Source: an uncultured Clostridia bacterium | GTDB taxonomy: Bacteria > Bacillota > Clostridia > Oscillospirales > Ruminococcaceae | DNA: 39,092 nt | Reading direction: 5' to 3' | Assembly: GCA_944386445.1 (NCBI GenBank) | Contig: CALXBD010000132.1 | Span: forward strand, 1-39,092 | In this document: positions 11,631 to 19,784 of the stretch, piece by piece | How positions within the stretch are numbered: the first letter of the stretch is position 1 | How the letters are laid out: each line of letters begins with the position of its first letter | Position numbers and translations under genes: made by a program | The notes under the pieces: generated by a model | Told to the model about the DNA's origin: nothing | The model's input: the letters and a program-made list of their open reading frames with translations, nothing else | The model's database searches: none

Positions 11631-12389
11631 ATGACCAGAATCCTTGCACATCGCGGAGCAAGCAAAGAACAACCTGAAAACACTATGGCTGCCTTCCGAA
11701 GGGCAGAAGAACTGCAGGCAGATGGCATCGAAATGGATGTCCATTTGCTGCCGGACGGAAGCTTGCCGGTTCATCACGATGACAGGCTGGGACGTACCGT
11801 TCCCGAGGGGACCGGTTCTATTTATGGGTATACCTTTGAAGCCCTTCGGCAATTCAGTGCCGGCGCCGCTTTTGGGGAGGAGTACCGGAATGAAAAAATT
11901 CCGTCTTTCCGGGAACTTTTGGAGTTCCTGAAAGGGAATTCCCTTTACCTGAACGTGGAGATCAAAGCTAATACCGGCTTTATTACCGGTGTAGAGGATC
12001 GTGTCGTGGCAATGCTTCGGGAATATCATATGGAAGACCGCTGCATCATTTCATCTTTTAACCACTTTATCCTGAAAAACATAAAAAAGCGCTATCCGGA
12101 CTTCCAGGTAGGAGCCTTGTATTCCATCACGCTGGATAAGGACATGGCCGAATATGGCGCAGAATGGGGATGCAACACCCTTCACGCGGATTATCATCTG
12201 GTGGATCAGGCACTGGTGGAAAAGGCCCATTCGCTGGGAATGGCCGTCAACGTTTGGACTGTCGATCAAAAAGAGGATATCCGCCGGATGCTGGAGCTGG
12301 GTGTGGATTGCATTATCTCCAACGACGCGGCTCTGGCACTGGCTGAACGAGATGCTTTTGAAAAAGAGAAGGGAGAGTCACTGATATGA
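11631..12389 (+). CDS. Glycerophosphodiester phosphodiesterase
   Basis: A 252-residue cytosolic TIM-barrel enzyme that splits glycerophosphodiesters into glycerol-3-phosphate and an alcohol. HRGASKEQPENT holds His7 and Arg8; DGIEMDVHLLPDG has Glu34, Asp36 and His38; the catalytic acid-base His is in LPVHHD (48-49). AVNVWTVD and DCIISNDA close the barrel. The start at ATG 11631 has GGGGAAG six bases upstream; a longer in-frame reading is weaker. The stop overlaps the next start by four bases, so the two genes are coupled. No signal peptide, so the substrate is probably imported lipid or teichoic-acid fragments (inference). Confidence 0.9.
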   Translation: MTRILAHRGASKEQPENTMAAFRRAEELQADGIEMDVHLLPDGSLPVHHDDRLGRTVPEGTGSIYGYTFEALRQFSAGAAFGEEYRNEKIPSFRELLEFLKGNSLYLNVEIKANTGFITGVEDRVVAMLREYHMEDRCIISSFNHFILKNIKKRYPDFQVGALYSITLDKDMAEYGAEWGCNTLHADYHLVDQALVEKAHSLGMAVNVWTVDQKEDIRRMLELGVDCIISNDAALALAERDAFEKEKGESLI

Positions 12390-13345
12390 TTCAGACAAAA
12401 CCGATCACCGGCAGCTGGTTTGAGTTCCTGCATCACAATACCGCAGAGGGCAAGTACTGGAACGAGACGATCACCGCCTTTACTGAGGCACAGTGGCGGG
12501 AAAAGCTCCGGGAAATGAAGGAAGTGGGGATGAAGTATGTGGTTCTGATGGCCACGGCCCTCTATTCCAAATGCTATTTTAAGACCGATATCTTTCCGGA
12601 GTGGGAGATCGGCTGTGCCAATCCCATCGAGGTGCTGCTGGATGAAGCTGACAAGCTGGACCTGAAGGTTTTCATCGGAAGCGGCTTCTACGGCGACTGG
12701 ACCGATCCCATCGGGAATATGACCAACCCGGAAGTGTTGAAGCGGATGCTGCAGGCCATCAATGAATTGTCTGCACTGTATGGGCATCACAAGAGCTTTT
12801 ACGGCTGGTACTACCCCGATGAGACCTGGATCAACGGGCATATGTCTGAGGAGTTTATCAAATACGTGAACCTGTCCTCCGCAGAGGTCCATAAAATGGG
12901 CGCTCACTTCAAGACCCTGATCGGGCCGTATGGCACCCGGGACGTCATTGCCGATGACCGCTATGTGAAAGATTTGGAAGGGCTGGACATCGACTTCGTG
13001 GCATATCAGGATGAGATCGGCGTGGAAAAAACAAGCCTTACCGAAAGCGCAGGCTTTTATGAGGCACTGAAACGGGTCCATGACAAGGCAGGGCGGTCGA
13101 AGCTCTGGGCTGACGTAGAAGCTTTCCGGTTTGAAGGTAAGGTATATCATTCCGCACTGTTACCGGCTCCGTTTGAACGGCTCCAAAAACAATTGGAAGC
13201 GGTTTCGCCTTATGTGGAAGAGATCCTGATTTACGAGTACCCGGGCCTTATGAGCAAACCCGGTGGCAGTGCCTTTGCAGGTCATCCCGACGCAGCCAAA
13301 CTTTATACTGACTATGTGAACTATCGTGCAGCTCTGAATAAATAA
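12386..13345 (+). CDS. DUF4434 domain protein (putative TIM-barrel glycosidase)
   Basis: A 319-residue protein without signal peptide. TGSWFEFLHHNTAEGKYWNE at the N-terminus, EMKEVGMKYVVLM, SFYGWYYPDETW and DIDFVAYQDEIGVE match my memory of DUF4434, a barrel fold related to glycoside hydrolases. Acidic residues in GWYYPDE and YQDEIG sit where barrel hydrolases place catalytic carboxylates, but no activity is established. It is translated with GDPD through an ATGA overlap, with GGGAGAG upstream. The pairing suggests a glycan-linked glycerophosphate substrate. Confidence 0.75.
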   Translation: MIQTKPITGSWFEFLHHNTAEGKYWNETITAFTEAQWREKLREMKEVGMKYVVLMATALYSKCYFKTDIFPEWEIGCANPIEVLLDEADKLDLKVFIGSGFYGDWTDPIGNMTNPEVLKRMLQAINELSALYGHHKSFYGWYYPDETWINGHMSEEFIKYVNLSSAEVHKMGAHFKTLIGPYGTRDVIADDRYVKDLEGLDIDFVAYQDEIGVEKTSLTESAGFYEALKRVHDKAGRSKLWADVEAFRFEGKVYHSALLPAPFERLQKQLEAVSPYVEEILIYEYPGLMSKPGGSAFAGHPDAAKLYTDYVNYRAALNK

Positions 13346-13398: not shown

Positions 13399-13410
13399 TT
13401 CTGATGAACG

Positions 13411-13881
13411 CTAGCGCGTTATTTCCTTCATCATCAAAAAACACGATGTCCCTTTTTTGTAAAAATCTGGCAATACGCCAACCTGCCGATATCCCAGACT
13501 TTCATATAATTTCTTTGCGCGGATATTGAAATCGTCCACAGTCAGAAAGTATTTTGTTGATAAGTAAGCAGAAGCGTTTTCTTCAAAATATTTTAGTAAC
13601 TGTTTTCCGATCCCCTGACCACGATATGCCTCTTTAACAGAAAGAACATGCAGATAAGGATAACTGCCGAAAACGCCTTTGGGCATAAACCAGACAAACC
13701 CAAGGCATCTTTCTTCAGCACAGAGTGCGGCGAATACTTCTCCCCTTTGTACAGCATCCGCTAGCATTGATCGAGTTTTTCCAATGTCGCTGAAATAGAT
13801 GGCTCCTATATCGGAATGTATCAGCGCATCTACGCAGTCCTCAATATGACCTAAATCAGCCTTTACAATAGTGATCTCCAT
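13411..13881 (-). CDS. GNAT-family N-acetyltransferase
   Basis: A 156-residue acetyltransferase. The acetyl-CoA loop is RGQGIGKQLL, preceded by the beta-4 strand YLHVLSVKEAY. The C-terminus (DDFNIRAKKLYESLGYRQVG) is the standard GNAT dimer-and-fold region. The start MEITIVKADLGHIEDC at 13881 has GAGGGA five bases upstream; the in-frame extension to 13983 would run over the promoter of the riboswitch on the other strand and lacks a ribosome site. The substrate is unknown. Confidence 0.85.
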   Translation of the reverse strand: MEITIVKADLGHIEDCVDALIHSDIGAIYFSDIGKTRSMLADAVQRGEVFAALCAEERCLGFVWFMPKGVFGSYPYLHVLSVKEAYRGQGIGKQLLKYFEENASAYLSTKYFLTVDDFNIRAKKLYESLGYRQVGVLPDFYKKGTSCFLMMKEITR

Positions 13882-13918
13882 AAATCCCTCATGCACTTTA
13901 ACTGGTAGTAAATAGTCC

Positions 13919-13947
13919 TTGCATTTTCGAATGAGATGTGCTATAAT
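13919..13947 (+). promoter_or_regulatory. Promoter of the guanine riboswitch transcript
   Basis: TTGCAT (13919-13924), 17 bases, TATAAT (13942-13947). Transcription should start near 13954, about 27 bases before the aptamer. Confidence 0.75.
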
Positions 13948-13980
13948 GAACCTGCTTGAAAAACTTTTCTTTGTGGCAGA

Positions 13981-14050
13981 CACACATATATTGCCGCGAA
14001 TCTGGCGTGGGAGTTTCTACACGGTCACCAAATTGACTGTACTATGTGTG
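13981..14050 (+). ncRNA. Purine riboswitch aptamer, guanine type
   Basis: P1 pairs CACACATA (13981-13988) with TATGTGTG (14043-14050). J1/2 is TAT. P2 pairs TGCCGCG with CGTGGGA around the loop AATCTGG. J2/3 is the invariant GTTTCTAC (14013-14020). P3 is ACGGTC/GACTGT with an eight-base loop. The residue equal to position 74 of the xpt aptamer is C14042, which selects guanine rather than adenine. J1/2 has T where xpt has A24. It is followed by a terminator but by no plus-strand gene. Confidence 0.9.
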
Positions 14051-14084
14051 GCTGACCTTCTTTCTAATGGTTTCATAAAACTGT

Positions 14085-14118
14085 AAGAGGGTGAAAGATT
14101 TCACCCTCTTTTTGTTTT
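14085..14118 (+). terminator. Riboswitch expression-platform terminator
   Basis: AAGAGGGTGAA pairs with TTCACCCTCTT around AGAT and is followed by TTTGTTTTT. The 5' arm AAGAGGGT (14085-14092) can instead pair with ACCTTCTT (14055-14062), eight base pairs including one G-U, as an antiterminator. Confidence 0.88.
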
Positions 14119-14144
14119 TATAAATATGGCCCTGAAGAATAAGG

Positions 14145-14429
14145 TTAAAAATAGCCAGGCACAGTAGGAATTTGTTGTAAATTCCACAGCAGCGGAAGCA
14201 GATTCGCTAAAAAAACGAAAAGGAAGTATGCGATAAAGCCGATAGCAAAAAGCGCTGCTCCAATGATACAGATCATGGGGATAATTTTTTGGTCCGGATT
14301 TTGCTGAGAACCCGGATTGTCAAACTGACGAAACGTCGGCCGTTTTTCAGATGGCCCTTGTGGTGCGGGTGCCCCACAATTGCTGCAAAAGGCGCTTTTC
14401 ACTTCATGTCCGCAGCGTGGGCAGATCAT
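14145..14429 (-). CDS. Zinc-ribbon membrane protein, small
   Basis: A 94-residue protein opening MICPRCGHEVKSAFCSNCGA: two CxxCG knuckles of a zinc_ribbon_2-type domain. A Pro/Gln/Ser-rich linker (residues 23-47) leads to one or two hydrophobic segments (about 50-80). The N-terminal ribbon is expected in the cytoplasm. Function unknown; proteins with this layout are frequent in Clostridia. AAGGAGAGG precedes the ATG. It has its own promoter and lies opposite the path of any read-through from the guanine riboswitch. Confidence 0.8.
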   Translation of the reverse strand: MICPRCGHEVKSAFCSNCGAPAPQGPSEKRPTFRQFDNPGSQQNPDQKIIPMICIIGAALFAIGFIAYFLFVFLANLLPLLWNLQQIPTVPGYF

Positions 14430-14504
14430 AAGAACCTCTCCTTTTTGTTGTCGAAAATTGACGAATTGAAGGATTTTTCACACATGATTCGTGTGCTTGT
14501 ACTA

Positions 14505-14533
14505 ATTATATAATTTTTTCATTGTTAATTCAA
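14505..14533 (-). promoter_or_regulatory. Promoter of the zinc-ribbon membrane protein gene
   Basis: On the minus strand TTGAAT (14533-14528), 17 bases, TATAAT (14510-14505). Confidence 0.7.
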
Positions 14534-14562
14534 TAGAAGTTTCGAAAAATTCATAAAAGCCC

Positions 14563-14591
14563 TTGACATTTTTTAAAAATTAGGTTATGAT
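14563..14591 (+). promoter_or_regulatory. Promoter of the sigma-factor gene
   Basis: TTGACA (14563-14568), 17 bases, TATGAT (14586-14591), 34 bases before the chosen start codon. Confidence 0.8.
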
Positions 14592-14625
14592 ATTCTCATC
14601 GTAATGAAGTTTGGGTGAATCAGGC

Positions 14626-15213
14626 ATGAAAATGACGCCAAATGTCTCCGGTGACGGCCCTTTGGCTGAGGAACAAGCCTTGCTGGCGCTTTACCAGGGA
14701 GGTGACGGAGATGCAGCTGCAGTTCTCCTGTCTCGATATATCCCCCTTATTCATCGATATGCGCATCAGTTTCAGGGCGTGCTGGACTCGGATGATTTGA
14801 TTCAGGAAGGTTGTATTGGTTTCCTGGACGCAATCCGAAGTTTTGATCCCGATTCAGGTGTGAAATTCAGTTCCTATGCGTCGGTTTGTATTAAGAATCG
14901 AATGCTGAAGGCTGTGGAAAAAAGCTCCAGCAAAAAGGCCGGCATCCTTAACAACAGCATCCCCTTGGAAGAAGCCGAAGAACGTTCCGATGGTTTGACC
15001 CCGGAAAAGATCTTTATCGAAAAGGAAAGCCTTGAGGCTGTCCTGGAGGATGTTAACAACGTACTCTCCCCCTTAGAGCGGAAGATTTTGTTTTCCCATC
15101 TCGGCGGTTGCGATTATCAGATGATCGCTGATTCCCTGCATATCTCGCGAAAAGCCGTTGACAATGCTCTGCAGCGTGTCCGGAGGAAACTGAAGTCTAT
15201 TCATCGGGCGTGA
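14626..15213 (+). CDS. Sigma-70 family RNA polymerase sigma factor (SigH-like)
   Basis: A 195-residue sigma factor. Region 2 is DLIQEGCIGFLDAIRSFDPD (core binding) with KFSSYASVCIKNRM (-10 recognition). Region 4 is LSPLERKILFSHLGGCDYQM followed by the helix-turn-helix ISRKAVDNALQRVRRKLKS. The GLTPEKIFIEKE spacer and the VDNALQRV helix resemble Spo0H/SigH more than ECF factors. It lacks regions 1 and 3. ATG 14626 is taken because GGGTGA lies seven bases before it; a TTG at 14611 is possible. No anti-sigma gene is adjacent. A role in stationary phase or sporulation is inference. Confidence 0.85.
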   Translation: MKMTPNVSGDGPLAEEQALLALYQGGDGDAAAVLLSRYIPLIHRYAHQFQGVLDSDDLIQEGCIGFLDAIRSFDPDSGVKFSSYASVCIKNRMLKAVEKSSSKKAGILNNSIPLEEAEERSDGLTPEKIFIEKESLEAVLEDVNNVLSPLERKILFSHLGGCDYQMIADSLHISRKAVDNALQRVRRKLKSIHRA

Positions 15214-15239: not shown

Positions 15240-15311
15240 TTTGCCCCAATAGCTTAATTGCAGAGCGTTGCTTATCACAAAGGTGGCGGTGCAAATCCGT
15301 CTGCGGGCAAA
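15240..15311 (+). ncRNA. tRNA-like element with a shortened anticodon arm
   Basis: An outer stem TTTGCCC/GGGCAAA (15240-15246 and 15305-15311) encloses U8 and A9 equivalents (15250-15251). The D arm is GCTT/GAGC with loop AATTGCA. The T arm is GGCGG/CCGTC with loop TGCAAAT, followed at once by the acceptor 3' strand. The anticodon stem has only three pairs (TTG/CAA), with loop CTTATCA and variable loop AGGT. The inner acceptor has two mismatches and no CCA is encoded. A decoding tRNA is therefore unlikely. It is either a decayed tRNA or a structured leader of the zinc-ribbon gene 29 bases downstream. Confidence 0.6.
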
Positions 15312-16061: not shown

Positions 16062-18461
16062 TCACTGCCTTAAGATTGCATTAATTTTCTCCAGTGCTTT
16101 TAGGATTTTTGCCATAGCGTGGTCACATTCCTCGTCAGTAAGAGTTCTGTCAGAAGCACGAAGTACCAACGAGTAAGAGACGCTCTTTTTGCCCTCAGGA
16201 ATCTGGCTGCCTTGATAGACATCGAACAGCTGAACCTTCTCGACAATATTGGAAGCAGCGGAACGAATGGTTTTTTCAAGTTGGGCGATAGGCATATCGA
16301 CGTCAGCCAGTACCGAGAGATCACGAGTCGAGGCGGGGAATTTGGGAAGGGGCTGATAGATAGTCTGCTGCTTTTCCAATGCCGCAAAGAGAGGCTCCAG
16401 CCGCAATTCCGCAACATAAGCCCGGATATCTATGCCGAAATCGGCGGCAGTAAGAGGGTGGACCTCGCCTAAAACGGCAACAGGAGCATCATATCCGGGA
16501 AGCCGGACTTCTGCCTGACGGCCGGGGTGCAGGTAAGGTTCAGCAGAAGGCGTGAAATCACCGTTAACACCAAAACGTTTTAAAACAGTTTCCACAATTC
16601 CTTTAAGCGTAAAGAAATCTTCGTCAGGCCCATAAAGTCCCAAGCAGACTGCCGGAATCTCTGCAGGCTGCTCCGTGACCGGCAGCGCCTTTGGCAGAAA
16701 GAGCTTTCCTACCTCAAACATCCGCACAGCAGGGATTTTTCTACTGTCGTTCAGCGCCAGAACCGTTAGCATGCTGGATACCAACTGGGTGCGCATTACA
16801 GAATATTCCTCGCCTAGGGGGTTCAGAAGGGTAACGACCCGGCGGCGGGAATCTTCTTTATCCAGACGCAAAGCATCCAATGCTTTGGGGCTAATGAAAG
16901 AGTAAGTGGTGATTTCCCGCATGCTCTGGGCAGCCAGCAGATTTTTCAGGGTATCTGTGTGAATCCGTTCCGGCAGCTTTTTGCCCCGGGTCAGCGCGCC
17001 GCGGATAGGCGTTGCCGTAATATGCTCGTATCCGTAAATCCGCATGACCTCTTCGGCCAGGTCGGCCCGACCTTCGATGTCATCCCGGAAGGAAGGAATT
17101 CGGCAGGTCAGGGTATCGCCTTCCACAGTGGTGGCGATTGCCAAAGCATTCAAAATTTCCACCATAGCCGGCACGGGGACATCAACCCCTAACAGCGCGT
17201 TGATAGAGGCCGCCGGAACCTGCAGAATCCGCTCTGCAGGAAGCCCCTGATTACGGTCGATGATGCCTTCCATGATGTCACCGGCATCCAACTCCTCAAT
17301 GAGCTGCAATGCCCGTTCCATGGCGTAGGAAACATTGTGGATATCTACGCCTTTCTCATAACGGGCGCTGGATTCTGTGCGCATACCCAAGGTACGGGCG
17401 GTGCGGCGGACGCTGTCGCGGCGGAATTTCGCACATTCCAGGAAAAGATCTGTGGTATCGGGTTTGATTTCGCTGTCCAGACCACCCATGATACCTGCCA
17501 GGCAGGAAGGACCTTCGCTGTCCGCAATCACCAGCATATCGCTGTTCAAGGTATGGGGCTTTCCATCCAATGTGGTGATGGTCTCTCCGTCCTTTGCCCG
17601 TCTTACGATGATCTGGGCTCCGCGGATATCCCGCATATCAAAGGCGTGCATCGGCTGGCCGGTTTCCAGCATTACGAAGTTTGTAATGTCAACGATGTTG
17701 TTGATGGGGCGCATCCCGGCACTTTTGATGCAGCGCTTCATCCAGTCGGGGGATTCCTTAATCCGCAAGTTGCGAACGGCACGGCCGATATATCTCGGAC
17801 AAAGGTCATAATCTTCTACTGTAATGCTCATGCAGTCCGCGATGTTGCCGCCCGCGGTCCGGAAGGAAGGAACCGGCATATGGAATTCTTCTTTTAAGAC
17901 CACAGCCACCTCTCTGGCGATGCCCAGCACGCTGTTGCAGTCGGGACGGTTGGAAAGGATGGAGAAATCGATAATCACATCGTTCAGGTCCAGGACTTCC
18001 CGCATGTCGGTGCCAGGCGTCCAGTTGCCCTGCAGGATCAGAATGCCGTAAACCTCGGCGCCGGGGTAGTCGGATTCCTTCAGGCAGAGCTCTTCGCCGG
18101 AGCACATCATGCCGTCAGAGGGAAGGCCCCGCAGCTTGCCACGTTTGATATGGGCGCCGTTGGGCAGGTGGGAGTCATGGAGGGCGCAGGGCACAAGGGC
18201 GCCTTCAAAGACGTTCTGAGCGCCGGTGATAATTTGAATCGGCGCGTCTCCACCGACATCCACTTGGCAAACCTGCAGCTTGTCCGCGTCGGGGTGCTTT
18301 TCAATTTTTAAGATACGGCCAACCTTTACATTATCCATGGTTTTGGAAAGGTCAATCATTTCCTCGACCTCGAAGCCGCTCATGGTCATTTTATCGCAAA
18401 GCTCTTCTGCTGAAACCTTAATATCCACATAGCGCTTCAGCCAGTTCAGAGATACTTTCAT
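16062..18461 (-). CDS. pheT: Phenylalanine--tRNA ligase beta subunit
   Basis: A 799-residue beta chain of the alpha2-beta2 PheRS. MKVSLNWLKRYVDI begins the N-terminal domain; a tRNA-binding EMAP-like domain (VGRILKIEKHPDADKLQVCQ) lies at 47-150. The B3/B4 editing domain, the B5 domain and the C-terminal FDX-ACB anticodon-binding domain (FPASTRDLSVLADVDMPIAQ) complete the length. GGAGG precedes ATG 18461. It lies 18 bases after pheS, the usual operon order, and is controlled by the T-box upstream of pheS. Confidence 0.97.
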   Translation of the reverse strand: MKVSLNWLKRYVDIKVSAEELCDKMTMSGFEVEEMIDLSKTMDNVKVGRILKIEKHPDADKLQVCQVDVGGDAPIQIITGAQNVFEGALVPCALHDSHLPNGAHIKRGKLRGLPSDGMMCSGEELCLKESDYPGAEVYGILILQGNWTPGTDMREVLDLNDVIIDFSILSNRPDCNSVLGIAREVAVVLKEEFHMPVPSFRTAGGNIADCMSITVEDYDLCPRYIGRAVRNLRIKESPDWMKRCIKSAGMRPINNIVDITNFVMLETGQPMHAFDMRDIRGAQIIVRRAKDGETITTLDGKPHTLNSDMLVIADSEGPSCLAGIMGGLDSEIKPDTTDLFLECAKFRRDSVRRTARTLGMRTESSARYEKGVDIHNVSYAMERALQLIEELDAGDIMEGIIDRNQGLPAERILQVPAASINALLGVDVPVPAMVEILNALAIATTVEGDTLTCRIPSFRDDIEGRADLAEEVMRIYGYEHITATPIRGALTRGKKLPERIHTDTLKNLLAAQSMREITTYSFISPKALDALRLDKEDSRRRVVTLLNPLGEEYSVMRTQLVSSMLTVLALNDSRKIPAVRMFEVGKLFLPKALPVTEQPAEIPAVCLGLYGPDEDFFTLKGIVETVLKRFGVNGDFTPSAEPYLHPGRQAEVRLPGYDAPVAVLGEVHPLTAADFGIDIRAYVAELRLEPLFAALEKQQTIYQPLPKFPASTRDLSVLADVDMPIAQLEKTIRSAASNIVEKVQLFDVYQGSQIPEGKKSVSYSLVLRASDRTLTDEECDHAMAKILKALEKINAILRQ

Positions 18462-18479: not shown

Positions 18480-19502
18480 TTAATTGAACTGTTCCAGAAA
18501 ACGCAGGTCGTTCTCGAACAGCAGCCGGATATCGCTGATCTTATAGCGGGTCGTTGTCAGCCGGTCCAGACCGATTCCGAATGCGAACCCGGAATAGACT
18601 TCCGGATCGATACCGCAGCCTGCCAGCACTCTGGGGTGGACCATACCGGCTCCCAAGATTTCGATCCAGCCGGCGCCCTTGCAGACTCGGCAGCCCTTGC
18701 CGCCGCAGGCGCTGCAGCTCACATCGACCTCAACGCTGGGTTCCGTGAACGGGAAGAAGGAGGGACGGAACCGCACCTGGGTTTCCGGCCCGTATATCTC
18801 ATGGACAAACTGCTCCAAGCAGCCTTTCAGGTCGCACATGGTAATCCCTTTGTCCACGACCAACCCTTCCATCTGGTGGAAAACAGGGGAGTGGGTGGCA
18901 TCCACCTCATCGGCCCGGTAAACGCGGCCGGGGCAAACCATTCGGATCGGAGGCTGACGGTGTTCCATAGTACGGGCCTGAGCCGCGGAGGTCTGAGTCC
19001 GCAGCAGCAGATTCTCTCCCAAGTAGAAGGTGTCCTGCATATCCCGGGCAGGATGATCCTTCGGCACGTTTAGGGCCTCAAAGCAGTAATAATCCGTCTC
19101 CACCTCGGGACCGTCCACCACGTCGAATCCCATGGACTGAAAGATGTTGATGAGGTCCTCCTGGACGATGCTTAAAGGATGCAGTCCGCCTAAAGCCCGT
19201 TCTTTTCCGGGCATTGTGATGTCCAGCTTTTCTGCTGCAAGGCGATCCTCCAGTTCTCTTGCTTTCAGTTCCTCCTGACGATGGGCGACTGCTTCTTCCA
19301 AAGTCTGCCGCACTTCATTGGCCACCTGTCCGATGACAGGACGCTCTTCTGCAGACAGCTTTCCCATCTGTTTGAGAATGGCAGTCAGTTCTCCCTTTTT
19401 ACCCAGATATTTGACTCGCAGTCCGTCCAAAGCCTTCAGATCCGGACATTCGCGCAATTCTTTCAGCGCATTTTCCTTGATTTGCTCTAATTGTGCACGC
19501 AT
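18480..19502 (-). CDS. pheS: Phenylalanine--tRNA ligase alpha subunit
   Basis: A 340-residue class II synthetase catalytic subunit. The N-terminal coiled coil (residues 1-90) binds tRNA. Motif 2 is [20 protein letters not shown] and motif 3 is [17 protein letters not shown]. The cysteine pairs [16 protein letters not shown] are a common feature of PheS. GGAGG lies before ATG 19502. It is the first gene of the pheST operon, behind a Phe T-box leader that senses uncharged tRNA-Phe. Confidence 0.97.
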
Positions 19503-19784
19503 ATGAATCCTCCTTTATTCCAAACAAAAAGCCCTCATCCCATCCGTTTCCGGACTGGGACGAAGGCATCATGCTCCGCGGTACCACCCAGGTTCCGCCA
19601 TAATAAGGCGGCTCTTGAATCCCCATAACGTAGGGCAGCCGTCGCTTCCTACTGAAGGTTCAGAAGCGCCGCTCACAGGGGAAACTTCACGGAATCCATT
19701 GGCAGACGGGCTTACAGCCGGTGACCCATCCTCTCTGATGCATACATTCCGCTACAGACCTGGTCAAAGCGTTTAATTATTACT
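19503..19784 (-). ncRNA. T-box leader of pheST, Phe specifier
   Basis: Read on the minus strand. Stem I contains AGAGAGGATGGG and CTGTAAGCCCGTC distal-loop elements. A TTC specifier codon (19683-19681) lies in GTGAAGTTTCCCC. The T-box proper GGGTGGTACCGCG (19588-19576) carries the UGGN that pairs with the uncharged tRNA end. The terminator is GCCTTCGTCCCA pairing with TGGGATGAGGGC (19566-19531), then TTTTTGTTT. Everything is ordered as in classical transcription-attenuating T-boxes. Confidence 0.95.

Follow-up and report, generated by a model that had tools for sequence, protein, structure and literature searches.

A complete riboswitch of the guanine-I type is found without a gene of its own in an uncultured Clostridia bacterium of the Ruminococcaceae, at positions 13919 to 14118 of a 39,092-nt stretch of DNA (contig CALXBD010000132.1 of assembly GCA_944386445.1, genome G000 in our set) that was analysed as a whole and is called the window here. 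The riboswitch class is a known one but the setting is unusual, and the element is valuable chiefly for comparison with a pair of gene-less copies found in two species of genus g63. We regard it as an orphaned, transcription-terminating leader that has lost its gene or was separated from it and that is probably still transcribed and able to switch, a reading that we favour with confidence and doubt in about equal measure. A riboswitch is almost always interpreted by way of the gene that follows it, and the five gene-less cases among the 97 purine aptamers of the family, one pair of them shared by two species, offer concrete places where recruitment as free regulatory RNA can be set against lingering after gene loss. 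The elements of the locus, in order along the window, are these:

12386..13345, plus strand: DUF4434 gene (Pfam), missing from this interval in the congener G002, where the flanking genes are the same
13411..13881, minus strand: GNAT acetyltransferase gene (Pfam), divergent from the riboswitch promoter
13919..13947, plus strand: putative promoter with a weak -35 and a perfect extended -10, start probably near 13954
13964..14064, plus strand: guanine-type purine riboswitch aptamer (RF00167, P2 and P3 pairs; presumed C74 equivalent at 14042)
14055..14092, plus strand: antiterminator hairpin, predicted by RNAfold of truncated and constrained transcripts
14085..14118, plus strand: intrinsic terminator, an 11-pair stem at 14085-14110 and then the U tract
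14145..14429, minus strand: ORF for a small zinc-ribbon protein of 94 aa, convergent with the riboswitch and a possible antisense target
14563..15213, plus strand: promoter and gene of a sigma-70-like factor, first co-directional gene after the riboswitch (ORF, promoter scan, Pfam and comparison with G002)

A covariance-model search of the window matched RF00167 at 13964-14064 on the plus strand over the full model length, with 59.9 bits (E 4.6e-8) for a gathering score of 37, which excludes a low score and confirms the complete guanine aptamer proposed in the initial annotation. When its own genome was searched (86% complete, 154 contigs), the match had an E value of 7.8e-10 and was the sole purine aptamer found. 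All seven P3 pairs and six of the seven P2 pairs form, with a G.G at the second position of P2, so that a decayed aptamer is unsupported; moreover, the sequence and its alignment show the usual GUUUCUAC in J2/3 and a J3/1 with its C. The canonical fold lies 1.5 kcal/mol above the minimum; P1 is present in the fold of 13954-14118, and this RNA folds with -52.9 kcal/mol (z -4.7), a value as low as which was reached by 0 of 200 shuffles. By our own assignment, with the numbering of the xpt aptamer, equivalents of U22, U51 and C74 are all present, and we take position 14042 to be C74, in agreement with the earlier proposal. These three bases are given as ligand contacts in PMC9295807. The window element is a complete guanine-I type aptamer and is predicted to bind guanine.

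The promoter had been described as a consensus one, and this holds for a part of it: the extended -10 at 13939-13947, TGCTATAAT, has no mismatch (the window contains 4 such sites versus 0.84 expected), but the -35 TTGCAT at 13919-13924 has 3 of 6 matches and a two-hexamer promoter scan of the window did not list 13919-13947. Behind the aptamer, the 11-pair stem at 14085-14110 followed by TTTGTTTTTA bears out the proposed intrinsic terminator, supported also by the fold of 13954-14118, and the eight-pair antiterminator, another element of the initial annotation, is likewise recovered, with 14055-14062 paired to 14085-14092 in the minimum-energy fold of an RNA cut at 14096 (RNAfold). This antiterminator overlaps the extended P1 by only about two bases (14056-14057), and both are therefore largely able to coexist. 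In partition-function calculations, the probability of the antiterminator, with the 5' arm of the terminator held upstream, was 0.69 when P1 was forced and 0.89 when it was forbidden. The difference of 0.20 falls on the median for the 59 computable aptamers among the 97 of the family (31 had no terminator and 7 no P1), with equal or lower values in 31 of the 59, the window aptamer included; the test is a rough one, since for the pbuX riboswitches of G003 and G004 it chose a terminator of only -1.3 kcal/mol. The modelled coupling between P1 and antiterminator is modest, and the whole looks like an OFF switch. The idea that all switching parts look intact is sustained for aptamer and terminator; intactness of parts alone cannot separate recent orphaning from function. 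Compared with known guanine-I riboswitches (RF00167; the xpt, pbuX and pbuG leaders), the window element shares the aptamer core, the three helices, the L2 GG and L3 CC, the terminator and the antiterminator, and differs in having no gene behind, an L3 of 6 nt instead of the 7 of the RF00167 model, and the small overlap of antiterminator and P1.

Leading a purine gene is usual for a guanine-I riboswitch and does not define the aptamer class. In the window no purine gene follows: as the initial annotation had described, the next gene is the convergent zinc-ribbon ORF on the minus strand, and the next one on the plus strand encodes a sigma factor with its own promoter, TTGACA-17-TATGAT at 14563-14591 (11 of 12 matches), the ORF starting at 14611 and its first ATG at 14626. 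To the left of the riboswitch stand the divergent GNAT gene and then the DUF4434 and GDPD genes. A distance of 26 nt separates 14118 from the zinc-ribbon stop; it shows no remnant of a purine gene and has hardly room for one. Plus-strand ORFs of at least 20 aa (ATG, GTG or TTG starts) within 700 nt, the sigma gene aside, are few and none has a Shine-Dalgarno-like site, for which reason a hidden small ORF was rejected as the partner gene. The protein of 14145-14429 has an N-terminal zinc ribbon and a hydrophobic tail, with matches to Zn_Ribbon_1 and DZR below their cut-offs. GC content is 0.39-0.41 across 13400-14600, below that of the adjoining DNA, with nothing sharper. A mobile element was also rejected, as 13882-14144 had no blastn match in phage or plasmid collections and shows only short imperfect repeats. 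The GNAT gene, whose best other match among the 396 family genomes reaches 59%, was discarded as a partner too: in the ~3.4-kb loci of its six nearest matches (L245-L250, with identities of 59, 56, 42, 30, 35 and 34%; for three of them the gene order was inspected) nothing from Rfam scored over its gathering cut-off.

The best-matching congener, G002, keeps the order ABC, GDPD, zinc ribbon, sigma, zf_Tbcl, with the GDPD and zinc-ribbon genes convergent and 3 nt apart, and there the DUF4434 gene, the GNAT gene and the riboswitch are absent, so that this stretch was either gained in G000 or lost in G002. The zinc-ribbon counterpart of G002 stands in the same place and is 26% identical over 72 aa, and its sigma-gene counterpart has a similar promoter without a riboswitch. 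It had been considered at the outset that related genomes could carry a purine gene here; none was seen, the flanking genes of G002 being those 3 nt apart. Among 60 relatives the 200-nt element had no full match, the sole hits outside G000 being 27 and 36 nt long, and no aptamer was found in the 10 of 80 sigma-gene loci that were scanned (those of named genomes, G002 and G005 included). Conservation of the arrangement, a sign of function and not a strict requirement for it, was not seen in these 60 relatives (by DNA), the 10 named loci or G002.

Purine genes and their riboswitches have a changing distribution in the genus, whose gene names (BDH, mfd, pth, xpt and so on) were recognised from sequence except for those given by Pfam. 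One purine aptamer each was found in 4 of the 7 genomes. In G002, G003 and G004 it precedes a permease gene, pbuX (Xan_ur_permease by Pfam for the G004 copy, the other copies named by similarity), which stands back to back with xpt, and no aptamer other than this one was found in the congeners. The expression platform of the window element is unlike those of the pbuX riboswitches, and beyond the aptamer core there is little resemblance, whereas a common platform is found in G002 and G004; the element is therefore not simply a relic of a pbuX riboswitch of the genus, and this origin was rejected. All six congeners have xpt (83-100% identity, the query being taken from one of them), whereas the best match in G000 has only 26%, and the best matches there to pbuX and to the symporter adjoining xpt have 28% and 41%. 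Neither xpt nor pbuX was found in G000 at its 86% completeness, and in the congeners both stand elsewhere than at the riboswitch locus. A BDH-mfd-pth stretch that adjoins the purine genes in G001, G002 and G003 lies on contig C147 of G000 without them; since the genome is incomplete and C147 stops ~2 kb past pth, loss of the purine genes is likely, though unproved. In G001, G005 and G006, moreover, xpt is present and no aptamer was found, so gain and loss of this riboswitch occur in the genus in any case.

At the level of the family, 97 purine aptamers were found in 70 of 396 genomes, one of them below the gathering score, and at least 700 nt of downstream DNA was examined for all 97. Comparison by blastx with six reference proteins labelled 68 of them with a matching gene, which starts within 350 nt in 61 cases and at 388-855 nt in the other seven, six of these having an xpt-like gene in between. 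The remaining 29 were inspected by eye; a co-directional gene follows in 24 of them (purE, purC, xanthine dehydrogenase, guanine deaminase, MATE, of which one copy looks broken, ECF, SIMPL and others) and is lacking in 5. The names of these 24 genes were recognised from sequence and not by family search, as was the label of the SIMPL-like secreted protein, a non-purine gene that in two species of genus g87 (L122 and L130) lies about 260-340 nt downstream of a purine aptamer. Gene-less guanine aptamers are uncommon but recurrent in the family, and their share of 5/97 is an estimate, as search filters were strict and the family was sampled. In the portion of the literature reached by a search with no claim of completeness, a gene-less guanine riboswitch is not described. 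Besides the window aptamer, the gene-less cases are the following:

G108:C7:1537611-1537711, minus strand: gene-less aptamer (L117), no co-directional gene
G130:C46:62994-63094, minus strand: gene-less aptamer (L097), no co-directional gene
G174:C2:597114 and G242:C3:2919, the g63 gene-less aptamer loci: L112 about 499-815 and L128 around 2001-2101 (L128 on the minus strand), with base-pair changes and an identical 43-nt stretch

Within 700 nt of the five aptamers, the sole ORF of at least 20 aa with a Shine-Dalgarno-like site is one of 23 aa in G174, encoded on the opposite strand from rplA. In G108 the next gene is convergent and starts about 600 nt away, and the coupling between P1 and antiterminator is strong (0.03 with P1 forced and 0.74 without it, in the same rough test).

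The two copies of g63 (G174 and G242, two species) lie between spoIIID and a convergent rplA, as named from sequence. Base pairs are kept in both at 22 of 23 positions, 4 of them with two-sided changes, and there are zero two-sided changes when the alignment is slid by 1-3 columns; the structure was taken from one of the two sequences, and 37 of 500 shuffles equal this result, a consequence of only two sequences existing. Behind both aptamers follows an identical 43-nt stretch, and their promoters are alike. Four other genomes of the genus had no match, which leaves the aptamer in 2 of 6. In P3 and J3/1, the aptamers of G174, G242 and G108 are similar to the family's purE-associated ones, a likeness that fits an origin from purE leaders.

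Orphaning is the most likely origin of the window element because the riboswitch stands at the right-hand end of a block of extra DNA, made of DUF4434, GNAT and riboswitch, between genes that are 3 nt apart in G002. The gene that it formerly led would have been lost, or would never have come along with the block. In favour also count the leader-bearing genes not found in G000 (xpt, pbuX and the adjoining symporter) and the recurrence of gene-less aptamers in the family. Transcription would start at about 13954; with much guanine it would stop near 14118 and give a leader RNA of about 165 nt, and with little guanine some polymerase would read through, giving antisense to the zinc-ribbon gene with probably little or no selected effect. 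Against orphaning speak the apparently intact parts, the platform unlike those of the genus pbuX riboswitches and the lack of any visible purine gene remnant; the missing purine genes, moreover, could lie in the unassembled part of G000, and the riboswitch is variable in the genus in any case. The initial annotation had offered three readings, deletion of a purine gene, a small RNA acting alone and antisense to the zinc-ribbon gene, and each keeps some probability here.

The main rival to an orphaned leader is a selected antisense role, possible though on balance unlikely, in which read-through at low guanine would lower expression of the zinc-ribbon gene and termination with guanine would protect it. 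Precedents for this design are described in PMC7154746, where a B12 riboswitch controls the antisense RNA of Listeria rli39/aspocR, and where an S-box antisense to the ubiG operon of Clostridium acetobutylicum is shown by experiment. As in the published description of aspocR, the window riboswitch is convergent to the next gene and has none of its own, and ligand would stop antisense read-through; the ligand is another one, and in the window the transcript is a predicted one whose candidate target has no known relation to the ligand. With the S-box, as far as that source describes it, the window element shares a riboswitch-gated convergent layout, with a predicted transcript here and an experimentally shown one there, and differs in ligand and in the sulfur operon that is the target. 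The 26 nt from 14118 to the zinc-ribbon stop, the OFF-type layout with its antiterminator and the single plus-strand terminator-like site listed between 14118 and 14563 (6 pairs, at 14325) would all suit such control. However, the window copy was not found in the other genomes examined, the zinc-ribbon protein has no known purine link, the coupling is modest, and the terminator hairpin counts as a terminator-like site on the minus strand as well, where its role may be no more than to end the zinc-ribbon transcript. If the read-through continued across the zinc-ribbon gene into the sigma gene, the element would be the long leader of an excludon. The order of the genes and the 6-pair site between them would allow it, but the sigma gene has its own promoter, as does its G002 counterpart without any riboswitch, and the distance is about 490 nt, with 285 nt antisense to the ORF; we consider this very improbable.

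A stand-alone guanine-dependent small RNA, whose terminated or read-through form acts in trans, or which is a ligand-dependent RNA in its own right, is improbable for the window element. It draws on the g63 pair, with its kept and two-sided pairs, identical 43 nt and similar promoters, but that pair has the limits of two sequences and of 2 genomes in 6, its 43-nt stretch was not seen behind the window aptamer, and no target is known. A broader proposal, that the family has a small group of guanine riboswitches without genes, acting alone as guanine-gated antisense or trans RNAs, with the window copy directed at the zinc-ribbon gene and the spoIIID-rplA copies of g63 as a conserved second type, is doubtful. 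A riboswitch between CD2517 and CD2517.1 of Clostridioides difficile, which is listed as an orphan with no known function (PMC11477304), belongs to another class, apparently c-di-GMP-I to judge from its place in that list. Lastly, a wrong join in this metagenome-assembled genome would agree with its 154 contigs, 86% completeness and 2.3% contamination and with a GNAT gene that has no close congener match; it is hardly credible for an element in mid-contig with genes on both sides matching the G002 order.

Two other RNAs were observed in the window. A short tRNA-like RNA lies at 15243-15309 on the plus strand, between the sigma-factor and zf_Tbcl genes, and recurs at L159 8554-8618, L161 8618-8684, L162 8617-8682, L163 8669-8732 and L166 3739-3802; it scores 33-40 bits to the tRNA model and has a shortened anticodon arm, with two of the six aligned loci identical, and ARAGORN called no tRNA in L020-L026, the copies of the window and G002 included. 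An ordinary T-box leader at 19553-19776 on the minus strand (107 bits) lies upstream of an apparent pheS-pheT pair, named from sequence, at 18480-19502 and 16062-18461 on the same strand.
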